The notes beneath the pieces are model-generated. The model worked only from the letters and a program-made list of their open reading frames with translations, was not told where the DNA came from and searched no databases. Positions 2,496-27,826 of a stretch of DNA of 27,826 nt are shown here, one piece after another. Both the position numbers and the translations under genes were made by a program. The stretch comes from a virus. Every line of letters begins with the position of its first letter. The first letter of the stretch is position 1. The stretch lies in IMG/VR virus record IMGVR_UViG_3300011116_000364, positions 1 through 27,826 of that record. One strand, 5' to 3'.

Positions 2496-2810
2496 ATGCA
2501 GTCATACGCAGAGCAACAGGTCACGGTGCTCACCGCCAAGTTGGTGCAGGAACAAGCACGTGTGAAGGAACTTGAACAGGAAGTTCACCGACTCAACTCC
2601 GTGCACCAGCGTGACTTGATAGAGCAAGCAGAGACACAAGCGTTGTACGACCGGCTGCGTGGCAGTCTCGGCAACGTCGCCACGGCGTATCTCAACTTCG
2701 GCAAGGCGTGGGCACAAACCGATGGCGCCAATGACCAAACACTGCAGGACTTGTGGGTGCAACTGCGCAAGGCGATGTACGGTCAAATTGAGGACACCGA
2801 CTACAACTAA
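2496..2810 (+). CDS. Coiled-coil protein, 104 aa
   Basis: I do not recognise a family. Residues about 4-48 form a likely coiled coil, with heptad-spaced hydrophobics in QQVTVLTAKLV and VKELEQEVHRL, followed by a second helical stretch (about 50-100) with AYLNFGKAW and LWVQLRKAMYGQ. ATG 2496 is preferred because GGAAGTGAGG ends about 5 nt upstream. An in-frame ATG at 2466 would overlap the end of the Rpf-like gene by 7 nt and lacks as good a ribosome binding site. The 23-nt gap suggests co-transcription with the hydrolase. A chaperone-like, structural or DNA-associated role are all possible; nothing decides between them. Confidence 0.65.
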   Translation: MQSYAEQQVTVLTAKLVQEQARVKELEQEVHRLNSVHQRDLIEQAETQALYDRLRGSLGNVATAYLNFGKAWAQTDGANDQTLQDLWVQLRKAMYGQIEDTDYN

Positions 2811-2812
2811 CC

Positions 2813-2832
2813 GGTCGCCACAATGCTACGAT
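2813..2832 (+). promoter_or_regulatory. Candidate leaderless promoter P4
   Basis: A -10 box TACGAT (2827-2832) lies exactly 6 nt before ATG 2839, so the expected transcription start coincides with the ATG. Upstream GGTCGCCAC (2813-2821) lines up with the GGTTCACAC element of P1, P6 and P7 at the same distance from the -10 box. No ribosome binding site is visible, consistent with leaderless translation. A -35 box is not clear. Confidence 0.4.
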
Positions 2833-2838
2833 GACGAG

Positions 2839-3612
2839 ATGACCATGATGGACAACAGCGTTGATAGTGTTGTCGCTTCATCGTGTAGTTCGTCTAGTGA
2901 CGTGTGGCAACGTTGCCTACGTGCGCTCAAGCCCGGTGGTCATGCAGTTGTCCTTGCCGAGCCGACTGCATACCACCGTGTAGCGGTCGCTATTGAAGAT
3001 GCAGGCTTTGAGATTCGTGACCAAATCATCTGGCTGCATGATCGCCACAACTCCATCGTGCTCGCTCGCAAACCACTTGTCGGCACGGTTGCCAACAATG
3101 TCTTGACGTACGGTGTTGGTGGACTGAACATTGACGATACGAGAGTGCCAAGCGATGACGGATTCGAGAAGGCGTGGGACAGGCCAATAAGCACCAACAT
3201 CTCGGCTAAAGGTGGCAAGTTCATAAGTGAAGGTATCCAGCACACCGTTGACCTATCAGGGAACAAGCCGAAAGGCGGTCGCTGGCCTGCCAACGTCATC
3301 ACTGACGGTAGTGCTGGTGTAGTGGCAGGGTTTCCTGATAGTAACGGTGGCGCATTTCCTCAGAAATCAAATGTGCCAACAGGTCGCCATTATGAGGGTG
3401 GCTGGGGAGCGGTAGATAATGGCGTGCGAACTGAAATGGGTTCAGGTTCCGCAGTCCGCTTCTTCGCCACTGCACCCACGCAGATTTCACTATTTCGCTA
3501 TCTCATCAAACTCGTGACTCCACCGAACGGTGTAGTCCTTGACCCATTTGACGATTCCACCATTGCCGCTGCGATTGAGGCAGAAGGCATGACTAGAGCA
3601 AGGAACAAATAA
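2839..3612 (+). CDS. Degenerate DNA methyltransferase paralogue, catalytic motifs lost, 257 aa
   Basis: This is clearly homologous to the methyltransferase that follows: NSVDSVV, LRALKPGGHAVVLAEP, YHRVAVAIEDAGFEIRDQII, IVLARKPLVGTVANNVL, RWPANVITDGSAGVVAGFP and RYLIKLVTPPNGVVLDPF all have close counterparts. The catalytic parts are gone. Where the active copy has T-D-P-P-Y, this one has A-S-S-C-S (residues 13-17); where that one has the SAM-binding D-P-F-L-G-S-G-T-T, this has D-P-F-D-D-S-T-I-A. The YG/SGFPKS block is deleted and the C-terminus is cut short. The frame is nevertheless open over 257 codons. ATG 2839 is the first start after the upstream gene. The stop (TAA 3610-3612) abuts the GTG of the active gene, suggesting coupling. 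It may be a non-catalytic partner, a decoy or a gene in decay. Confidence 0.75.
   Translation: MTMMDNSVDSVVASSCSSSSDVWQRCLRALKPGGHAVVLAEPTAYHRVAVAIEDAGFEIRDQIIWLHDRHNSIVLARKPLVGTVANNVLTYGVGGLNIDDTRVPSDDGFEKAWDRPISTNISAKGGKFISEGIQHTVDLSGNKPKGGRWPANVITDGSAGVVAGFPDSNGGAFPQKSNVPTGRHYEGGWGAVDNGVRTEMGSGSAVRFFATAPTQISLFRYLIKLVTPPNGVVLDPFDDSTIAAAIEAEGMTRARNK
3055..3105 (+). repeat. Direct repeat A, copy 1 (51 bp)
   Basis: This segment of the degenerate methyltransferase gene matches 5530-5580 in the active gene at 50 of 51 positions and codes for IVLARKPLVGTVANNVL in both. Flanking sequence is much less similar, pointing to recent gene conversion or recombination between the paralogues. Confidence 0.85.
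3280..3335 (+). repeat. Direct repeat B, copy 1 (56 bp)
   Basis: This matches 5767-5822 at 53 of 56 positions and codes for RWPANVI-(T/H)-DGSAGVVAGFP in both methyltransferase genes. Confidence 0.85.
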
Positions 3613-6339
3613 GTGCTACTTCGTGGTGATTGCTTGGAACTCATACGACAGATGCCAGACAACAGCGTGGACAGTATCGTGACCGACCCACCGTATGAAC
3701 TTGGCTTCATGGGCAAGTCGTGGGACAACTCCGGCATTGCCTACAACGTTGAGTTGTGGACTGAGTGTCTACGAGTTCTGAAACCGGGCGGCCACCTGCT
3801 TGCCTTTGGTGGCAGTCGTACTTATCACCGCCTTGCTTGCGCCATTGAGGATGCTGGCTTTGAGGTGCGTGACCAGATCATGTGGCTCTACGGATGCCTT
3901 GACGAACAGACAGAGATGCTCGTAGACGGCAAGTGGATTTCCTACACAGACATTTCCGAAGGTCAGAACGCACTTGCGTATGACGCAGACAACGATGAGT
4001 ATTCTTGGCAACCTGTTCAACGAGTTATCCGATTCAACTACACAGACACGGCCTACAGGCTCTCTGGCGCACTCACCAATCAACTTGTGACTCGTGAGCA
4101 TCGCTGCCTTGTCAAGTCCGGCGATAAGTTTGTGTTTCAGGAAGCACAAGATGTTGCGCAAGTTGGATTTGCAGAAGTACCAGTTCTGCAGAATGTAGAT
4201 GCTCTGATTGACGCACTGACTCAACCGATAGAGTGGTCGTATGGCACAGGTCAATCGCAAACCGAACGTGACTTGCGACCTATGTGCGACGCCGATGTAT
4301 CGCCGTGCTTCGCAACTAGCGAATCAAATCGGCAAGTTCTGCTCACGAGCATGTCGCAACAAGGCGTATCCGTTGAAGAACGGCGACAATTTCCCACCAC
4401 CCAAGTTCGGAGCGAACAATCCAGCGTGGAAGGGCGGAGTGACTTACTTTCGCAAGCACGGCAACTACAAGCCGATACTTTACGTTCGCTGCCCAATAGA
4501 GTTTCTCTCAATGGCACGCAAGGACGGCTACGTGATGGAGCATCGGTTGATCGTAGCGAAAGCGATAGGTCGGCCACTTCTGCGAACCGAAGTGGTGCAC
4601 CACGAGAATCACAATCCACAAGACAACCGCTTGGCGAATCTGTCGCTATTCTTGACCAACCGAGATCACAAACTGTACGAGCATCACGGTTCACCACTAC
4701 CGATCTGGTCAGGGTTGAACCAGAGCATTACGACGGAGTGATGTGGTGCGTGACCGTTCCGAGTGGAGCGTTCGTGGCACGTCGCAATGGCAAAGTGTTC
4801 GTGACCGGAAACTCGGGCTTCCCGAAGTCGCTTGATGTTTCTAAGGCGATAGACAAAGCCGCTGGCGCGGAGCGTGAAGTCATTGGGAGCCAACGCACCA
4901 ATGTTGGTATGCAAGGCGGCAATTTCACAGCAGGGTCGCAAGCCGGAGATGTTGCTATCACCGCACCGGCAACCCCCGAAGCCCAACAATGGCAAGGCTG
5001 GGGAACGGCACTGAAACCGGCGTTTGAGCCAGTAATCGTCGCTCAGAAACCTTTGAGAAATAAGGACTACTGCGATTGGATAGGTTCACACTTTGCTACA
5101 CTGCAAGCATGGCTACAGCAGGAAGTAGAGAATCAAATCCAAACTGGCGAGGCGGACGATTCGTTCGTTCCGATGGATACGTCGCTGTCAGAATCGGCAA
5201 CAACTACGTTCTTGAACATCGTCTCATCATGGCTGAACATCTTGGCCGACCTTTATCGCCACGAGAACATGTACACCACGTCAATCGCATCAGGAATGAC
5301 AACCGACTGGAAAACCTTGCACTCATTAGCGTTGAAGATCACGCCAGAGAGCATCACAAGGGAACAGACAAATCCAAGTGGACTACAATCAACTGTTTTG
5401 GTTGTGGGCAATCTATTGAGCGGCGCATGGCTGTCCTTGCAAGGAATCCAAGGGCTTTCTGCGGTAGAGAGTGCTACAGACTTCACGCCAGAAAGACACC
5501 CGGCAGGAACCGAAGTTAGTCACGAGCCAATCGTGCTCGCTCGCAAACCACTTGTCGGCACAGTTGCCAACAATGTCTTGGAGTGGGGAACTGGTGCGCT
5601 GAACATTGACGGTTCACGAGTTGGGACTGAGATTTTAGGTGGCGGAACAATGCCGAACCTAAGAGATGTGGGCGCTATGAGCAAAGAATCCACTGGCATA
5701 GATAAGTTGAGTTTTGGTCAAAATCCAAGACCTGCCACTCGGATTGAGCAACCAACCTACGAAGGCCGCTGGCCTGCCAACGTCATCCACGACGGTAGTG
5801 CTGGTGTAGTGGCAGGGTTTCCGACAAGTTCTTCTAGCAAAACAAAGTCAAACGATAACCGTCAAAATAACGGCAACTCAATGTTTATGGATGGCAAACA
5901 CAGTCCTGACAATTCGTACACAGATTCAGGTTCCGCAGCCCGGTTCTTCTACTGCGCCAAGGCAGGAAAGTCCGAACGTAATGCAGGGCTGGAAGGGTTG
6001 CCAGAACGCCGTGAGTCTGACCGTGAGAAAGATGATGGCGTCGGCGGCGACAACCCACGGAACCGGAGCAATGCCGCAAAGGTGAACTTCCACCCAACAG
6101 TCAAGCCAATCGCCCTCATGCGCTACTTGGTGAAGTTGGTCACGCCACCCGGCGGCACAGTCCTAGACCCATTCCTCGGTAGTGGCACTACTGCCTGCGC
6201 TGCCATCATGGAAGGCTTTGAGTGGCTCGGCTGCGAGATGACTGAGGACTACTGGCCGATTATTGAAGCACGTACAGAATGGGCACGTGACGAGTTCGAC
6301 AAGATCGCCGTACAACCAAAGGCTTCAACACTGTTCTGA
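3613..6339 (+). CDS. DNA methyltransferase (N6A/N4C, beta-class order) with intein and a nested HNH insertion, 908-aa precursor
   Basis: This SAM-dependent amino-methyltransferase should modify adenine-N6 or cytosine-N4 in DNA. The catalytic motif TDPPY is at residues 24-28, followed by LKPGGHLLAFGG and FEVRDQIMWLYG. The SAM-binding motif DPFLGSGTT is C-terminal (852-860), preceded by HPTVKPIALMRYLVKLVTPP; this order fits the beta class. Residues 95-400 are an intein that separates YG from SGFPKSLDVSKAID. A 166-codon insertion begins near residue 472, between two versions of EP-x-IV-x-A-x-KPL, and carries an HNH gene in another frame. Without both, about 436 residues remain, a usual size. GTG 3613 is chosen because AAGGA lies about 8 nt upstream and the preceding stop abuts it. 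Roles could be protection against host restriction or regulation. Whether the enzyme works with the second insertion is unclear. Confidence 0.85.
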   Translation: MLLRGDCLELIRQMPDNSVDSIVTDPPYELGFMGKSWDNSGIAYNVELWTECLRVLKPGGHLLAFGGSRTYHRLACAIEDAGFEVRDQIMWLYGCLDEQTEMLVDGKWISYTDISEGQNALAYDADNDEYSWQPVQRVIRFNYTDTAYRLSGALTNQLVTREHRCLVKSGDKFVFQEAQDVAQVGFAEVPVLQNVDALIDALTQPIEWSYGTGQSQTERDLRPMCDADVSPCFATSESNRQVLLTSMSQQGVSVEERRQFPTTQVRSEQSSVEGRSDLLSQARQLQADTLRSLPNRVSLNGTQGRLRDGASVDRSESDRSATSANRSGAPRESQSTRQPLGESVAILDQPRSQTVRASRFTTTDLVRVEPEHYDGVMWCVTVPSGAFVARRNGKVFVTGNSGFPKSLDVSKAIDKAAGAEREVIGSQRTNVGMQGGNFTAGSQAGDVAITAPATPEAQQWQGWGTALKPAFEPVIVAQKPLRNKDYCDWIGSHFATLQAWLQQEVENQIQTGEADDSFVPMDTSLSESATTTFLNIVSSWLNILADLYRHENMYTTSIASGMTTDWKTLHSLALKITPESITREQTNPSGLQSTVLVVGNLLSGAWLSLQGIQGLSAVESATDFTPERHPAGTEVSHEPIVLARKPLVGTVANNVLEWGTGALNIDGSRVGTEILGGGTMPNLRDVGAMSKESTGIDKLSFGQNPRPATRIEQPTYEGRWPANVIHDGSAGVVAGFPTSSSSKTKSNDNRQNNGNSMFMDGKHSPDNSYTDSGSAARFFYCAKAGKSERNAGLEGLPERRESDREKDDGVGGDNPRNRSNAAKVNFHPTVKPIALMRYLVKLVTPPGGTVLDPFLGSGTTACAAIMEGFEWLGCEMTEDYWPIIEARTEWARDEFDKIAVQPKASTLF
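4208..4234 (+). promoter_or_regulatory. Candidate leaderless promoter P5 for the intein-nested HNH gene
   Basis: TTGACG (4208-4213), a short 15-nt spacer and TAGAGT (4229-4234). ATG 4241 follows 6 nt after the -10 box, exactly where transcription should begin. No Shine-Dalgarno sequence precedes the ATG. The TAG inside the -10 box is also an in-frame stop for the HNH frame, so that frame cannot be a direct extension of the upstream intein frame. The short spacer makes this tentative. Confidence 0.35.
4241..4741 (+). CDS. HNH homing endonuclease nested out of frame inside the intein, 166 aa
   Basis: This probably makes the DNA break that lets the intein spread into intein-free copies of the methyltransferase gene. 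An N-terminal zinc-finger-like segment has C12-x2-C15 and C34-x3-C38. A linker with NNPAWKGGVTYF follows. The HNH core has E100-H101, then VVHHENHNPQDNRLANLSLF (H120, H121, N129, N133), and a later RDHKLYEHH (H143, H148, H149), as in the HNH_3-type family of phage homing endonucleases. The whole frame lies inside the intein but is shifted by one base from it, and its last codons overlap the DNA of the intein C-terminal motif. No ribosome binding site is visible; a TANNNT box 6 nt before ATG 4241 suggests a leaderless message. Inteins normally carry the endonuclease as an in-frame domain. Confidence 0.82.
   Translation: MAQVNRKPNVTCDLCATPMYRRASQLANQIGKFCSRACRNKAYPLKNGDNFPPPKFGANNPAWKGGVTYFRKHGNYKPILYVRCPIEFLSMARKDGYVMEHRLIVAKAIGRPLLRTEVVHHENHNPQDNRLANLSLFLTNRDHKLYEHHGSPLPIWSGLNQSITTE
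5073..5102 (+). promoter_or_regulatory. Leaderless promoter P6 for the second HNH gene
   Basis: GGTTCACAC (5083-5091) is followed by TACACT (5097-5102), the same element and spacing as in P1 and P7 (GTTCAC 12-13 nt before the -10 box). ATG 5109 lies 6 nt after the -10 box and has no ribosome binding site. The -35 region is weak (TTGGAT at 5076-5081 or CGATTG at 5073-5078). It sits inside the methyltransferase reading frame. Confidence 0.5.
5109..5519 (+). CDS. HNH homing endonuclease nested in the third frame, 136 aa
   Basis: This is a phage-type HNH endonuclease. Residues 10-27 (NPNWRGGRF, then SDGYVAVRI) form the usual N-terminal strand region. The core is YVLEHRLIMAEHLGRPL (E36, H37), then HVHHVNRIRNDNRLENLALI (H56, H57, N63-D64-N65, N69) and EDHAREHH (H78, H82, H83). 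The C-terminal zinc-finger-like part has C96-x2-C99 and C118-x3-C122. HNH1 carries a similar Cys pattern (FCSRACR against FCGRECY) at its N-terminus. ATG 5109 is preferred over TTG 5076 because a TACACT box lies 6 nt before it; TAA at 5061-5063 closes the frame upstream. The stop at 5517-5519 lies directly before the resumed methyltransferase sequence. Its target is probably a related methyltransferase gene. Confidence 0.85.
   Translation: MATAGSRESNPNWRGGRFVRSDGYVAVRIGNNYVLEHRLIMAEHLGRPLSPREHVHHVNRIRNDNRLENLALISVEDHAREHHKGTDKSKWTTINCFGCGQSIERRMAVLARNPRAFCGRECYRLHARKTPGRNRS
5530..5580 (+). repeat. Direct repeat A, copy 2 (51 bp)
   Basis: This is the partner of 3055-3105 (50 of 51 identical). 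It begins just downstream of the HNH insertion, in the resumed methyltransferase sequence. Confidence 0.85.
5767..5822 (+). repeat. Direct repeat B, copy 2 (56 bp)
   Basis: This is the partner of 3280-3335 (53 of 56 identical); part of the conserved RWPANVI region of the methyltransferase. Confidence 0.85.
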
Positions 6340-22264: not shown

Positions 22265-25200
22265 TTAGAAGCCATGAGAAGCGAACTGAACTTGCATCAT
22301 TGGCACTTGGCTCACGGCTGCACCGACCACAAATGTTGCAGGTAGTGATGATTGCCCGGTCATTGTGAAGCCACATGGAATCTGGTGTGTTGTCGTGGCG
22401 CTTTGGTTCCATGGAGCCGGACTACCGACAGGGATGCCGTTAGCCGCAGCGTGAACTGACACTGCAGTTGCGGTCGTGATGTTGCCAACCACAAGCCAAT
22501 ACCAACCGGTGCGCATGTTCCACCACAGAGCACCTGCCGTCGTCTGTGCGATACCAGCCGCAGTGGCCGCAATCGTGACAGCCGTGCCACCGTAGTTGGC
22601 AACCGAAAAGTCAACAAGCAACGGCCCGGGCTTCGCTCTGCTATTGTCCGGCAAATACAGGCCGCATGTCAACTTGCCACCTGCTACGGCTGGCGATTGA
22701 ATGTAGGTCGCAAGTCCGGTCAGTGCACTGGTCACTGTTGAGTTCACGTAGAACGGAATGGCGTACAAGGTGCCTTGCGGCATTGTCATCGTGATGTTGC
22801 CAGCCTCTTGCGGCATGAGCACGTTCCAATAGCCGTCTGCGTATGGCAGCGTCGGGATTGGCGAACCTTCGGTTAGCGAGAACGCAGACATACCTGCCGT
22901 TGGCAAGTTGGTTGGCTGTCCCAAGAAACTGTTGTAGGCCGACGTGTAGAACTTGCTTGCGAAGTAACCAGCACCAAGTGAGTTCGGGTGAATACCGTCA
23001 CTTGAAATCCAACGCATGTCAATAACGTATGAACCACCAAACGTGAACGACCCACTGGTGACGGTGCTTGTTGCGTTTTGCGACAACACAAGTTGGTCAG
23101 GCCGACCGTTCACGTATCCGTCAATGACGGTGTTGTTTGGAATACCAGTGCCGGTGACGTTCGTGCCGGGAGCAAAGCCGGTGGTCTTGTAGACCGTGCC
23201 AACCGTCGTGAGTGCTGGCTGTTCGTTTGTTTGCGTACCGAGTTGCTGACGTGTAGGCGAAAGCCGTGTCCAGAAAGTTGTTGCGTCAATGACGTCAGTG
23301 ACCACGACCGGACCGTTGAAGTGAGCCGGTGCAAATCCGGTTGCGTAGATGGTGTCGCCAACTACGAGTCCGTGAGCCGACGTTGTGGTGTAGACCCAAG
23401 CCGTCTTGCTTGATTGTGTCCACGTGTCAATCGTCGTGACCGCTGGCACTGCCGTCAAGAAGTTACCTGATGACTTGGTGAGCGTGGCGCTGCCGCTTGT
23501 GCAGTTGGCAACAATGGTCTGTTGACCATACTGAGCGTTGCTTGGCTGCGTGTACCCTGCGATGCCACGATTGACGGCAAGCACCCATTCGGTTGCAGAC
23601 GTCTTGGTGATGTTCGTGACCATCATTTGTTCGTTGAACGCCACCTGCGGTTGTGGAAATCCAAAGATGGGTGGATTGGTGCCACCGTTGACAATGGCTT
23701 GGCCGTTGCTGATGACCATGATGCGCATGTTCTTGTCACCGACATAGTTGCCGTACTCGTCTTGACCGAACGTGCTGCCCGGCTGCAGCGTGACGGTGAT
23801 TGAAGCGGCTGTGTTGGAGAACGTGCTTTTGAGATTGCCGGTGCGTTGAAACACGTCGGCGTCAATGTCAACAAGCACAAGATTGCTTGCACCAATGCTT
23901 GCGCTCTGGCTGTTGTAGATCGCCTTGGTCTGCTTGTTGAGCGAGTAGGACATACCTACTTGGTCGTTCAAGATACGTGGACTGGTCGCCATCATTACAG
24001 GTGACAGACTGTCTGCGTCACGACTCCAACCATCGAACACAACGCAAGGCTGGATGGTGCCCGAAGTTGATGGGTTGGTGCCTGCCGTGTTCATGGTCAA
24101 CACGTTGCGACTTGAAGTTGTTGTGCCGGTGACGTAAAGACCCATCGTGTTGCTTGGCACGCCTTGACCAGTAACGATTGACGGCACGTAGAGAAGCGGT
24201 GCTGCCGTGCCTGAGCCAATCGTTCCAACAATGTAGTCAGTGCTTCCGTTGGCCGTTGTCGGCGCTGCAGCAAATGAACTTGCAACCGGTACGCCTGCCA
24301 CCGTTGAAATGATGGTCTTGCCAGCATCCGAGCCAAGGCAGTTGAACGTGGCGACACGCATGATCGGTTGACCGAACTCACCTTGTGCGGAGAGTGCGAG
24401 CGAACCAGTTGCGGCTGAGCACGTACCAGAGAAGTCAACTCGCAGTGCGTTTGGTTCCTCTGCGCTTGTGCCCCAAAAGTGGAGCCGAACGGTGCCACCT
24501 TGGAATGTGGTCGGCAGTGTGACCGTGATGGTCGAACCGTTGACGACCGAAGCCAACTGAGTCGGGCCGGTGCCAATGTTGGTCTTTTGCGTTGTCCATG
24601 TGCCACCGGTTGAGATGGTGGAGTGCGTAGACGGATAGAGCGAACCAGCGTTCAGTCGTGACACCACGCCACGAACCACGTTCTGCCAAGCGGTGAGTCC
24701 TGACCACTGTGTTGAAGCAATCGTCTGCACGGACGCTTGGCCGGTAAACAATGTCAATAGCACATCGTTGATACCGTGCACAAACAACGAAGGCGGCTGA
24801 CTGACGGTCGGGTAAATCTGGTCACTGAACGAAGCGTTGTTTGCGCCCTTGTAGCCGTAAGGCACAATCATCTGGCACAGCGAACCCCAGTCCGATGAGT
24901 TCGGTGAGTTGCGAATGTCGGTAAGTGCAGCACCGGAAGTTGACAAGTTGATGACGTCAACGGTGTTCACGCCGAACATGGCCTGCAAGCGTGAGGCAAG
25001 GTTGCCGTAGTTCACGTCAGGGTTGGTTGCACCGGCTGCACCAAGCCATGAGTGACCGAACAGTTCGATGGCTGAAATTGGATTCTGTGGTGCGCCGTTA
25101 GCGATGCTTGTGACCACACCAACCGATGACACGGTGACGTTGGCGTTATTGTACGAACCCGGTGTCACAGACGCTTGCGTGGCTAGCGAGATGACCGAGC

Positions 25201-26290
25201 CTGACGTGATCTGCACCGGGTAGACAGCCGACGCAACACCAACTGTACCCGGAGCACCCTGTGGCCCAGTGGCACCAACCGAACCAGTAGCACCAGCCGG
25301 AATGTAGAAGTTGAGAATTGCGTTACTTGGTGTGCCGGTATTGGTAACTGATGCAGCCGAACCGTATGCAACCGAAGCGGTAGAGCCAACCACGACGCTT
25401 GCAGCCGTGCCTTGTGCACCTTGCGCACCAACTGAACCTGACGTACCTTGCGGGCCTTGTGGGCCGACTGAACCTGCAGCACCTTGAGCACCAGTTGCAC
25501 CAACTGAACCGGTTGCACCTTGAGCGCCTGTTGCGCCTTGTGCGCCTGCCGGAATGAAGAAGTTGAGCACGGCACTTGTGGTCGTGCCGGTATTCGTTAC
25601 CGATGCTGCCGAGCCGTATGCGACCGATGCTGTTGTTCCGACCGCCACACTGGCGGCTGTACCTTGAACACCTTGAGCGCCAACTGAACCAGCCGTGCCT
25701 TGCGCACCAGTTGCACCTTGGGCACCAGCCGGGATAAAGAAGTTGAGTACGGCGTTGGTTGTGTTGCCACTGTTGGTGACCGATGCTGCCGAGCCATAGG
25801 CAACTGATGCAGTAGTGCCAACGGCAACGCTAGCGGCTGTACCTTGTGCGCCTTGAGCACCGACTGAACCAGATGTTCCTTGTGCACCTGTAGCACCTTG
25901 TGAACCTTGCGGACCGACCGAACCTGATGTGCCTTGTGCGCCCTGTGCGCCCTGCGGCCCCACGGAACCGGCTGCACCTTGCGCTCCTTGCGCACCAGTG
26001 GAACCAGATGTTCCCGAAGCACCGGTTGCACCTTGCGCACCCTGAGCACCCTGAGCGCCAACTGGAATGTAGAAGTTCAGGATGGCACTTGTTGACGTAC
26101 CGGTGTTGGTGACCGATGCCGCAGAACTTGAAGCGATCGACGCAGTTGTACCGACAGACACACTTGCCGCAGCACCTTGATTGCCCTGCGGACCGCCTGA
26201 TGGACCCTGTGCTCCGGGTGCACCTTGAGCACCGACGACCGCCGTGACCCACGTGCTTGATGCTGCGTCGTAGTACTTGAGTTGGGTCAT
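22265..26290 (-). CDS. Collagen-like fibre protein with SGNH hydrolase domain, 1341 aa
   Basis: This is a virion fibre with an enzyme head. Residues about 15-385 contain collagen-like G-x-y runs ([13 protein letters not shown]) alternating with four copies of a 37-residue cassette (AASVxVGTTASxA to NFxIP), which should trimerise. From about residue 400 an SGNH/GDSL hydrolase begins: block I is ELFGHSW (Ser414), block III is HGINDVL (N508, D509), and block V is SSDGIHPN (Asp1098, His1101). The approximately 590 residues between blocks III and V include two beta-rich inserts, so the hydrolase is spread over the gene. It may deacetylate or de-esterify surface sugars. ATG 26290 overlaps the preceding TGA (ATGA) and has AGGAATCAA upstream. 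Ends with a beta-rich C-terminal domain (about 1150-1341). Confidence 0.8.
25298..26173 (-). repeat. Four 111-bp fibre cassettes
   Basis: Copies at 25298-25408, 25550-25660, 25730-25840 and 26063-26173, each 37 codons long, separated by collagen-like runs of varying length. Copies 2 and 3 (in plus coordinates) are nearly identical. A fifth, partial one lies at 27776-27826 in the neighbouring gene. They could allow recombination that changes fibre length. Confidence 0.8.
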
Positions 26291-27826
26291 TTGATTCCTA
26301 ACCAAAGAAGGCGACTGAACGAACCGGGCGTGCCGGTGAACGGAGATGGCAGAGCGCTGACTGATGCCGGACCACTGAGCGCACGACCACCGCCTGCGAA
26401 CGTGCCAGATGTCTGCGTCGAGCCGATGTTGATGACCGTGCTTCCAGCCAAGGCGACCACTGACAACGATGGCGCTGTTGTGGCGCTGCCGATGAGCACG
26501 GCGATGTAGTAGATCGTGTTGGCGTAGAGCGTTACCGATGACGTGAGTCCCACTGTGATTGCGCCGGTGTTGGTGCCGAGCGTTGCCGAGAAGTCACTGG
26601 ATACGGCGAGCCTTGCTCCTGCCTGTGAGTAGATGCCGACGTAGCAGTTGGCCGGTACGGACGCCGCCGATGTGACGTTGAACGTGACGCTCGCTGCCGT
26701 GACTGTCATTGGCGACGTGAAGCCGCAATAGACCGGAGTGCCTGCGGTGAGTGCCGTGCCGCCGGTGAGCACGGTCGCCGGGTCGCCAGTCCAACCTTGG
26801 AAGCCTTGCGCCTGCGGAGTCCATGAGTTGTTGTACATGGGAACTGATTGCGGGTTAGAGGCGGTGACGTAGACCGTAGGTCCGCCAGCGTACGAACCTT
26901 GATAGTTGTACGAACTGCCCGGCGGCATCGTAAAAGGCTGCGTGGTTGCAACTCCTGCAACAGTGACCGCTCCGGGCTGCGCCGAGTTGGTGATGGTAAA
27001 TGATGTTGTTGTTGGCGTTGATGCAACCGTGTACGAACTTCCGTTGTAGGCCGTTGGCGTTAGACCACCAAGCACAACTGTTTGACCAACCGAGAAGCCG
27101 TGTGCCGCTCCGGTCGTGACCGTCCATGTTGTGCCGTTGGTCGTAATGCCGCCAGCCGATACAACGTATGACGTATACGTGGTGCCGTAGACATTAAGTA
27201 CTCCTGCTTGAGATGCCACGTTGGAGTTGGCAAGAAGCAAACAAGTTTGAGTAGAGACGTTGGTAATAATTTGGGGAACGGCATTTTGCGTTGCCGACCC
27301 GTTGATGACCAAGATGCCGGGACTAGCGCCTGTGTAAATTTGCTTGAAACCAAGGCCGAGCGTTGTGTTGGCGGCTGTGATGTTTGATGTAGATGTAAGC
27401 GAGCCGATTGCCGTGAAGTTGCCGGACGTTGGCGTGACTTCAAGAAAATAGTTGCTTGTGCCATCAGTCCAGACGATTGCAGGCAGTCCGGACGGAATGT
27501 AGTACGACGACGATGACCTGTTTAGAACAGCACTTGCAGTTGGGGTCACTGTGACTTGACTGCTTGATGAGACGTAAGTGGCGAGCCACGGTGCTGCCGG
27601 TGGCGTTGCTGGAAGCGTGACAATGCAAGCGCCAGAAAATACAATCATCTTGCCGTTGTCGGCTGCTGATGCTGTCCATGTCGTTGCTGCTGATGTTGTA
27701 ACTGAGCCAGCGATCTGACTCGTGCCTTGTGCTCCCTGCGAACCCTGTGCGCCTGTCGCTCCCTGCGAACCCACTGGAATGTAGAAGTTGAGTACAGCGT
27801 TGCTTGACGTTCCGGTGTTCGTTACC
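26287..27826 (-). CDS. Collagen-like fibre protein, 5' end outside the window
   Basis: The frame runs off the right edge: codons upstream of the GTG at 27774 continue a cassette identical in type to those of the downstream gene ([20 protein letters not shown]), so that GTG codes for an internal Val and is not the start. A short G-x-y run ([13 protein letters not shown]) follows, then beta-rich domains of about 470 residues: [17 protein letters not shown], then [13 protein letters not shown], a possible Ig-like or spike repeat ([16 protein letters not shown]) also echoed in the neighbouring gene ([15 protein letters not shown]), and a C-terminal part with [18 protein letters not shown], similar to carbohydrate-binding folds. 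It is probably a second fibre. The TGA overlaps the ATG of the next gene. Confidence 0.72.

Follow-up and report, generated by a model that had tools for sequence, protein, structure and literature searches.

A putative HNH homing endonuclease overprinted in the +1 frame of an intein in a viral DNA methyltransferase gene

In a 27,826-nucleotide stretch of viral DNA (positions 1 to 27,826 of IMG/VR virus record IMGVR_UViG_3300011116_000364; hereafter the window), an N6/N4 DNA methyltransferase gene carries an intein whose DNA also encodes, shifted by one base, an HNH nuclease (HNH1; Table 1). This dual-frame architecture is conserved among divergent relatives, in which the methyltransferase (host) frame is kept free of stop codons across the HNH. 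We read the locus, with a probability of roughly 78%, as a composite mobile element made of a HINT intein and an overprinted +1 HNH homing endonuclease. A splicing-only, mini-intein-like HINT domain would occupy a conserved methyltransferase site, and the usual in-frame endonuclease domain would be replaced by a stretch whose +1 frame codes for a zinc-finger HNH homing endonuclease and whose host frame codes for a disordered linker that needs only the absence of stops. The intein would excise itself to restore the methyltransferase, and a separate start codon on the same mRNA (ATG 4241 in the window) would give a free HNH nuclease that cuts uninserted methyltransferase alleles, into which repair would copy the intein.

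The first-pass annotation, made from the letters of the window alone, had placed an intein with splicing motifs in the host frame, and both residue conservation and predicted fold bear this out. Cys1, the [T/S]xxH of block B, the C-terminal TGN and Ser+1 were kept in 45 of 45 related inteins (window included). The AlphaFold model of the window intein consists of a confident HINT domain broken by approximately 150 residues, mostly with a predicted local distance difference test score (pLDDT) below 50, and this disordered stretch coincides with the HNH overprint. Foldseek searches with the model returned inteins and hedgehog proteins as top matches, with intein structures ranking first, and a profile of the intein family recovered the AceL NrdHF intein from the PDB (E 1.7e-11); the Pfam Intein_splicing profile matched host-frame intein residues 19–296 weakly (E 0.009, below cut-off). 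The insertion point is a conserved extein site for which intein-free alleles exist, as in Nala gp101, which reads uninterrupted WLYG-SGFPKS. We infer from these features that the precursor splices as protein. Besides Cys1, a Cys in block F (VWC) is invariant in the intein family (window 4744–4812 and the alignment), which also has the Thr of TGN but lacks a penultimate His; the structure that matches it best is that of the AceL class 3 split intein, and it is possible that the family links class 1 and class 3 chemistry. The longest intein seen (427 aa; locus L024, 3343–4623) has an HNH frame that codes for several tandem zinc fingers, so that the overprinted frame seems to have gained extra modules for DNA binding.

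The nuclease was likewise correctly assigned to the frame shifted by one base, where the Pfam HNH_3 match lies. An N-terminal zinc finger (C12, C15, C34 and C38) is followed by the HNH core, whose residues H120, H121, N129 and N133 are invariant, and the predicted structure has a mean pLDDT of 87; a sequence search of the PDB with HNH1 gave no match. In the window and its relatives the HNH is +1 to the intein rather than in frame with the splicing domain. The TAG just upstream of HNH1 and the overlap of its 3′ end with the C-terminal region of the intein (4693–4741), both pointed out in the first-pass annotation, are present. HNH-frame stops occur within the intein at 3923, 4088, 4196, 4205, 4217 and 4229; HNH1 must therefore start downstream of 4231, where the first ATG is at 4241. 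The host frame is open through all HNH codons, as had been noted, and indeed along the entire gene.

Table 1 Features of the methyltransferase gene in the window (approximate ends are marked)
Feature	Position	Strand	Remarks
N6/N4 DNA methyltransferase, host gene	3613..6339	+	Single open frame (frame 1), 908 aa, with two insertions
Intein, host frame, 306 aa	3895..4812	+	Cys1, block B TREH, C-terminal TGN, then Ser; between WLYG and SGFPKS
HINT splicing domain, N-terminal part (residues 1–109)	3895..4221	+	pLDDT mostly >90
Intein block B Thr-Arg-Glu-His	4090..4101	+	Read by the HNH frame too in most relatives
Host-frame linker (residues 110–260)	4222..4674	+	Predicted disordered, pLDDT mostly <50; HNH overprinted here
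HINT domain of intein, C-terminal part (about residues 261–306)	4675..4812	+	pLDDT mostly >90
TAG in HNH frame	4229..4231	+	Rules out in-frame upstream extension of HNH1
HNH1 nuclease, 166 aa, frame 2 (= +1)	4241..4741	+	Pfam HNH_3 E 7e-7, above curated cut-off
Second insertion (ShiLan type) in methyltransferase	5026..5523 (approximate ends)	+	Repeat-like flanks EPVIVAQKPL / EPIVLARKPL
HNH2 nuclease, +2 frame	5109..5519	+	ATG 5109, TTG at 5076; ShiLan-domain HNH homologue

The nested arrangement is widespread. With the HNH protein as query, an IMG/VR scan yielded 80 loci, 77 of which, together with the jumbo-phage record LR756508, have the HNH inside a homologous methyltransferase gene (the exceptions are L033, L046 and L081; L numbers denote loci). 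Across 79 nested loci, window included, the HNH is +1 to each placeable flank and zero host-frame stops fall within it; the single host-frame stop of L044 lies outside the HNH. Viral contigs queried with the window intein alone gave no match, and alignments were required as queries; scans of this kind recovered further copies, with unchanged phase, from IMG/VR and GTDB genomes. After clustering at 85% nucleotide identity, the non-redundant set comprised 115 nested copies, 71 in an intein at the window's site and 44 directly in a methyltransferase loop. Loci in which the HNH was not flanked on both sides by methyltransferase homology in one frame formed a free-standing class (L033, L103, L109 and L143 were assigned to it by hand). 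None of the loci found has an HNH in frame with the host gene, an arrangement that the first-pass annotation had said would refute its proposal, and the compensating indels that it had also considered cannot explain a phase common to 115 divergent loci. Among the hits in bacterial genomes are loop-type copies in Cupriavidus necator UYPR2.512 and Antribacter gilvus, both isolates, and copies in several metagenome-assembled genomes (MAGs). Methyltransferase distances correlated poorly with intein distances (r2 0.05) and HNH distances (r2 0.07), which, together with uninserted homologues such as that of Nala, suggests that the element is mobile.

Selection acts on the host frame across the HNH. 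For each locus, the HNH protein was held fixed, synonymous codons were drawn from the locus itself and host-frame stops were counted. The 115 nested loci contain no host-frame stops across the HNH against 1061 expected (671.5 in the intein class and 389.7 in the loop class, with 0 observed in both), whereas seven free-standing relatives have 107 stops in the corresponding phase against 116 expected. The third phase, used by no known protein, contains 1054 stops in the nested loci against 836 expected, an excess that may come from dinucleotide bias or from selection for hidden stops. For the window HNH1 alone, recoding produced a mean of 8.4 host-frame stops and none of 20,000 recodings was stop-free, so the odds of about 4 in 10,000 given in the first-pass annotation were too generous to chance. 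Its proposal that one stretch would yield a separate nuclease as well as a splicing linker gains support from the +1 nesting in 71 inteins and 44 loops with an uninterrupted host frame.

The reverse test, in which the host protein was held fixed and HNH-frame stops were counted in 45 inteins, indicates how far upstream the nuclease frame reaches. As far as codon −19, counted back from block B, HNH-frame stops were as frequent as expected, and from there on they were strongly avoided (2 versus 23 expected in the bin that directly precedes block B; 1 versus 20.6 shortly after); codon −19 is ATG or GTG in 22 of the 45 inteins. In most members, the nuclease therefore overprints block B too, and it has another zinc finger at its N terminus. 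With its six HNH-frame stops upstream of 4241, the window forms a natural exception. The first 55 residues of its HNH1 are of the loop type (best identity 69% to loop versus 35% to intein copies) and residues 131–166 of the intein type (69% to intein versus 42% to loop copies), and in the HNH tree it groups, with moderate support, with loop-type copies, its neighbour being L002. Judged by these identities, the window HNH1 is a chimera of the two types; the front of an intein-type HNH seems to have given way to a loop-type HNH, and the part of the frame left unused would then have gathered stops.

Several observations weigh against the composite-element interpretation. The penultimate residue of the window intein is not the usual His (its end reads GN), and the Foldseek match of the HNH1 model to I-HmuI is weak (E 2.4). 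Loop-type loci tolerate the HNH without an intein, which means that the HNH does not need the intein, and saturation at such distances can also give a low methyltransferase–HNH correlation. Start usage is the weakest step of the proposed mechanism: the Shine–Dalgarno signal at the window HNH1 start is weak (−2.5 kcal/mol), 10 of 21 tested −19 starts in the family reach ≤ −4 kcal/mol, which is modest, and the mean rank against recoded controls (0.44) is not clearly above the controls; strong signals were found in L023, L024, L042 and L051. Splicing, internal initiation, HNH translation, cleavage and homing are steps that we infer. As a separate observation, L063, L073, L075 and L107 share a recurrent TACCATAT(A/G)ACCATG-like sequence just 5′ of the ATG of the loop-type HNH, which the host frame reads as PY(N/D)H and the HNH frame as YH(I/M)T-M.

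The weak Shine–Dalgarno signals of many loci would fit an alternative in which programmed +1 frameshifting on the precursor, and not internal initiation, yields the HNH as a short intein–HNH fusion; the phase is always +1, hence a single shift event would suffice for every locus. However, HNH-frame stops lie 1–10 codons 5′ of the ATG in the window and in L002, L021, L022, L048, L053 and L056, which leaves little space for a shift site, and the boundary of stop avoidance in inteins matches the recurrent ATG or GTG. Given these stops so close to the ATG, in the window as in several loop-type loci, we regard frameshifting as live but improbable. We hold it to be more doubtful still that the host-frame stretch is selected as a functional domain, for example for target recognition in the loop class, with the HNH secondary. 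The loop-class stretch does replace the variable region between SGFPKS and GTALKPA, where a recognition domain would be expected for this order of methyltransferase motifs, but the linker is predicted to be disordered, and host-frame amino acid identity between intein loci was 0.27 versus 0.235 simulated (intein class only), an excess similar to that of the third phase (0.286 versus 0.258). Selection on the linker's own sequence was rejected on these grounds, the excess over the identity forced by the HNH being small; the simplest reading of the comparison is that the linker has to stay open and that no particular sequence is needed. The reading that chance or base composition keeps the host frame open, with the HNH a gene inserted in a broken methyltransferase, draws on long shadow open reading frames (ORFs) elsewhere in the window and on the open host frame over a second nested nuclease in the +2 frame (HNH2), where openness says less (3.3 expected stops, with 1.9% of recodings free of stops); for HNH1, the stop counts in the nested and free-standing loci refute it. 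Group I introns commonly carry HNH ORFs, but an RNA-level intron is just as negligible a prospect given the invariant intein splicing residues and the ever-open host frame, and Rfam at the gathering threshold gave no match in the window, L002, L006, L033 or L046, so that a group I intron core was discarded for these five.

Compared with known systems, the composite element brings together parts and a trick that are already known, but in an arrangement that we have not found described, with selection evidence and breadth beyond earlier reports. To our knowledge, the nuclease of every known endonuclease-bearing intein is an in-frame fusion, and the open-access papers searched describe no other arrangement, none of them reporting an intein with an out-of-frame endonuclease inside it. 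Canonical large inteins (such as PI-SceI and PI-PfuI) also unite a HINT splicing domain and a homing endonuclease in one locus, but by in-frame fusion rather than in overlapping frames. I-HmuI resembles HNH1 in joining an HNH core to DNA-binding additions and matches its model weakly, but sits in a group I intron, whereas HNH1 overprints a protein-coding frame. We consider it likely that these inteins represent a distinct architecture, widespread in uncultivated phages, in which the endonuclease is fully overprinted on the intein (block B DNA included in most members), one codon string is selected for both splicing and a DNA-binding nuclease, and the nuclease module moves between inteins and bare methyltransferase loops while the host frame stays open.

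The closest precedents come from the same methyltransferase family. The layout described in the first-pass annotation is real but not unique to the window, given the 115 relatives, and an out-of-frame HNH outside an intein, the ShiLan domain, was published for this family in 2025 (PMC11855218), alongside a different case, also outside an intein, in Pacc40 gp60. Like HNH1, the ShiLan domain is a patchily distributed zinc-finger HNH hidden in another frame with the host frame open; unlike HNH1, which belongs to a separate HNH group, is +1 and lies mostly in inteins, it has no intein, is in the +2 phase and occupies a linker thought not to be removed. Its authors argued from the open frame in a few phages (PMC11855218), whereas here stop avoidance was measured over 115 loci. 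The Applejack methylase (gp54/gp55; genome announcement, PMC12613952) shares the general layout of the window with its out-of-frame HNH, and no intein was reported in it. A mycobacteriophage intein with an in-frame LAGLIDADG endonuclease, as in ShiLan gp65 (Gosselin 2023, PMC9957025), occupies the same methyltransferase site as the window intein and has a related splicing domain, but its endonuclease is in frame where the window has the out-of-frame HNH. We found weak LAGLIDADG_3 matches in the ShiLan and Starcevich inteins, both at the place of the window's, and an in-frame LAGLIDADG_3 match (E 3e-6) in L263, a relative of the window intein.

The first-pass annotation had missed HNH2, which lies in the same gene and brings all three forward frames into use there (host, HNH1 +1 and HNH2 +2). 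HNH2 is homologous to the HNH of the ShiLan domain and shares its +2 phase, with 51–56% identity to the mycobacteriophage copies, 54.5% to the cyanophage Cr-LKS3 copy and 61% to that of L088, and is shorter than the mycobacteriophage version, with a TAA in its frame at 5061–5063. It has the features of a ShiLan-type hidden HNH (alternative frame, open host frame and no splicing element), whereas HNH1 does not, being in an intein. The L088 methyltransferase also contains two nested HNHs (965–1327 and 1834–2541), one +2 (ShiLan type) and one +1, the latter at another, more C-terminal site.

Overprinting would offer a homing gene another way to ride a protein-coding gene cheaply, the frame decoupling the nuclease from the host protein, and would explain puzzling low-complexity linkers of inteins and methyltransferases. 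It also predicts many unannotated nucleases, since annotation takes the long frame and misses the short one. The loci present a clean case of dual-frame coding by two recognizable protein families, testable by counting stop codons, for which the free-standing relatives and the shortened HNH of the window serve as natural controls for overlapping-frame evolution.

Nesting is not confined to one methyltransferase family: in L108 (Cloacimonadota MAG), the gene of a different N6_N4 methyltransferase (305–2461) has a frame open over a +1 nested HNH (1749–2264). The host methyltransferase of the window has motif IV (DPPY) close to its N terminus and FxGxG close to its C terminus. An upstream methyltransferase-like paralogue (2659–3612) has ASSCSS in place of DPPY and DPFDDSTIAA in place of FxGxG, lacks the region that carries both insertion sites and is probably catalytically dead. 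On the minus strand, 22265–27774 encodes two large proteins with long collagen-like GAQGAQG / GPQG repeats, which are probably tail fibres.

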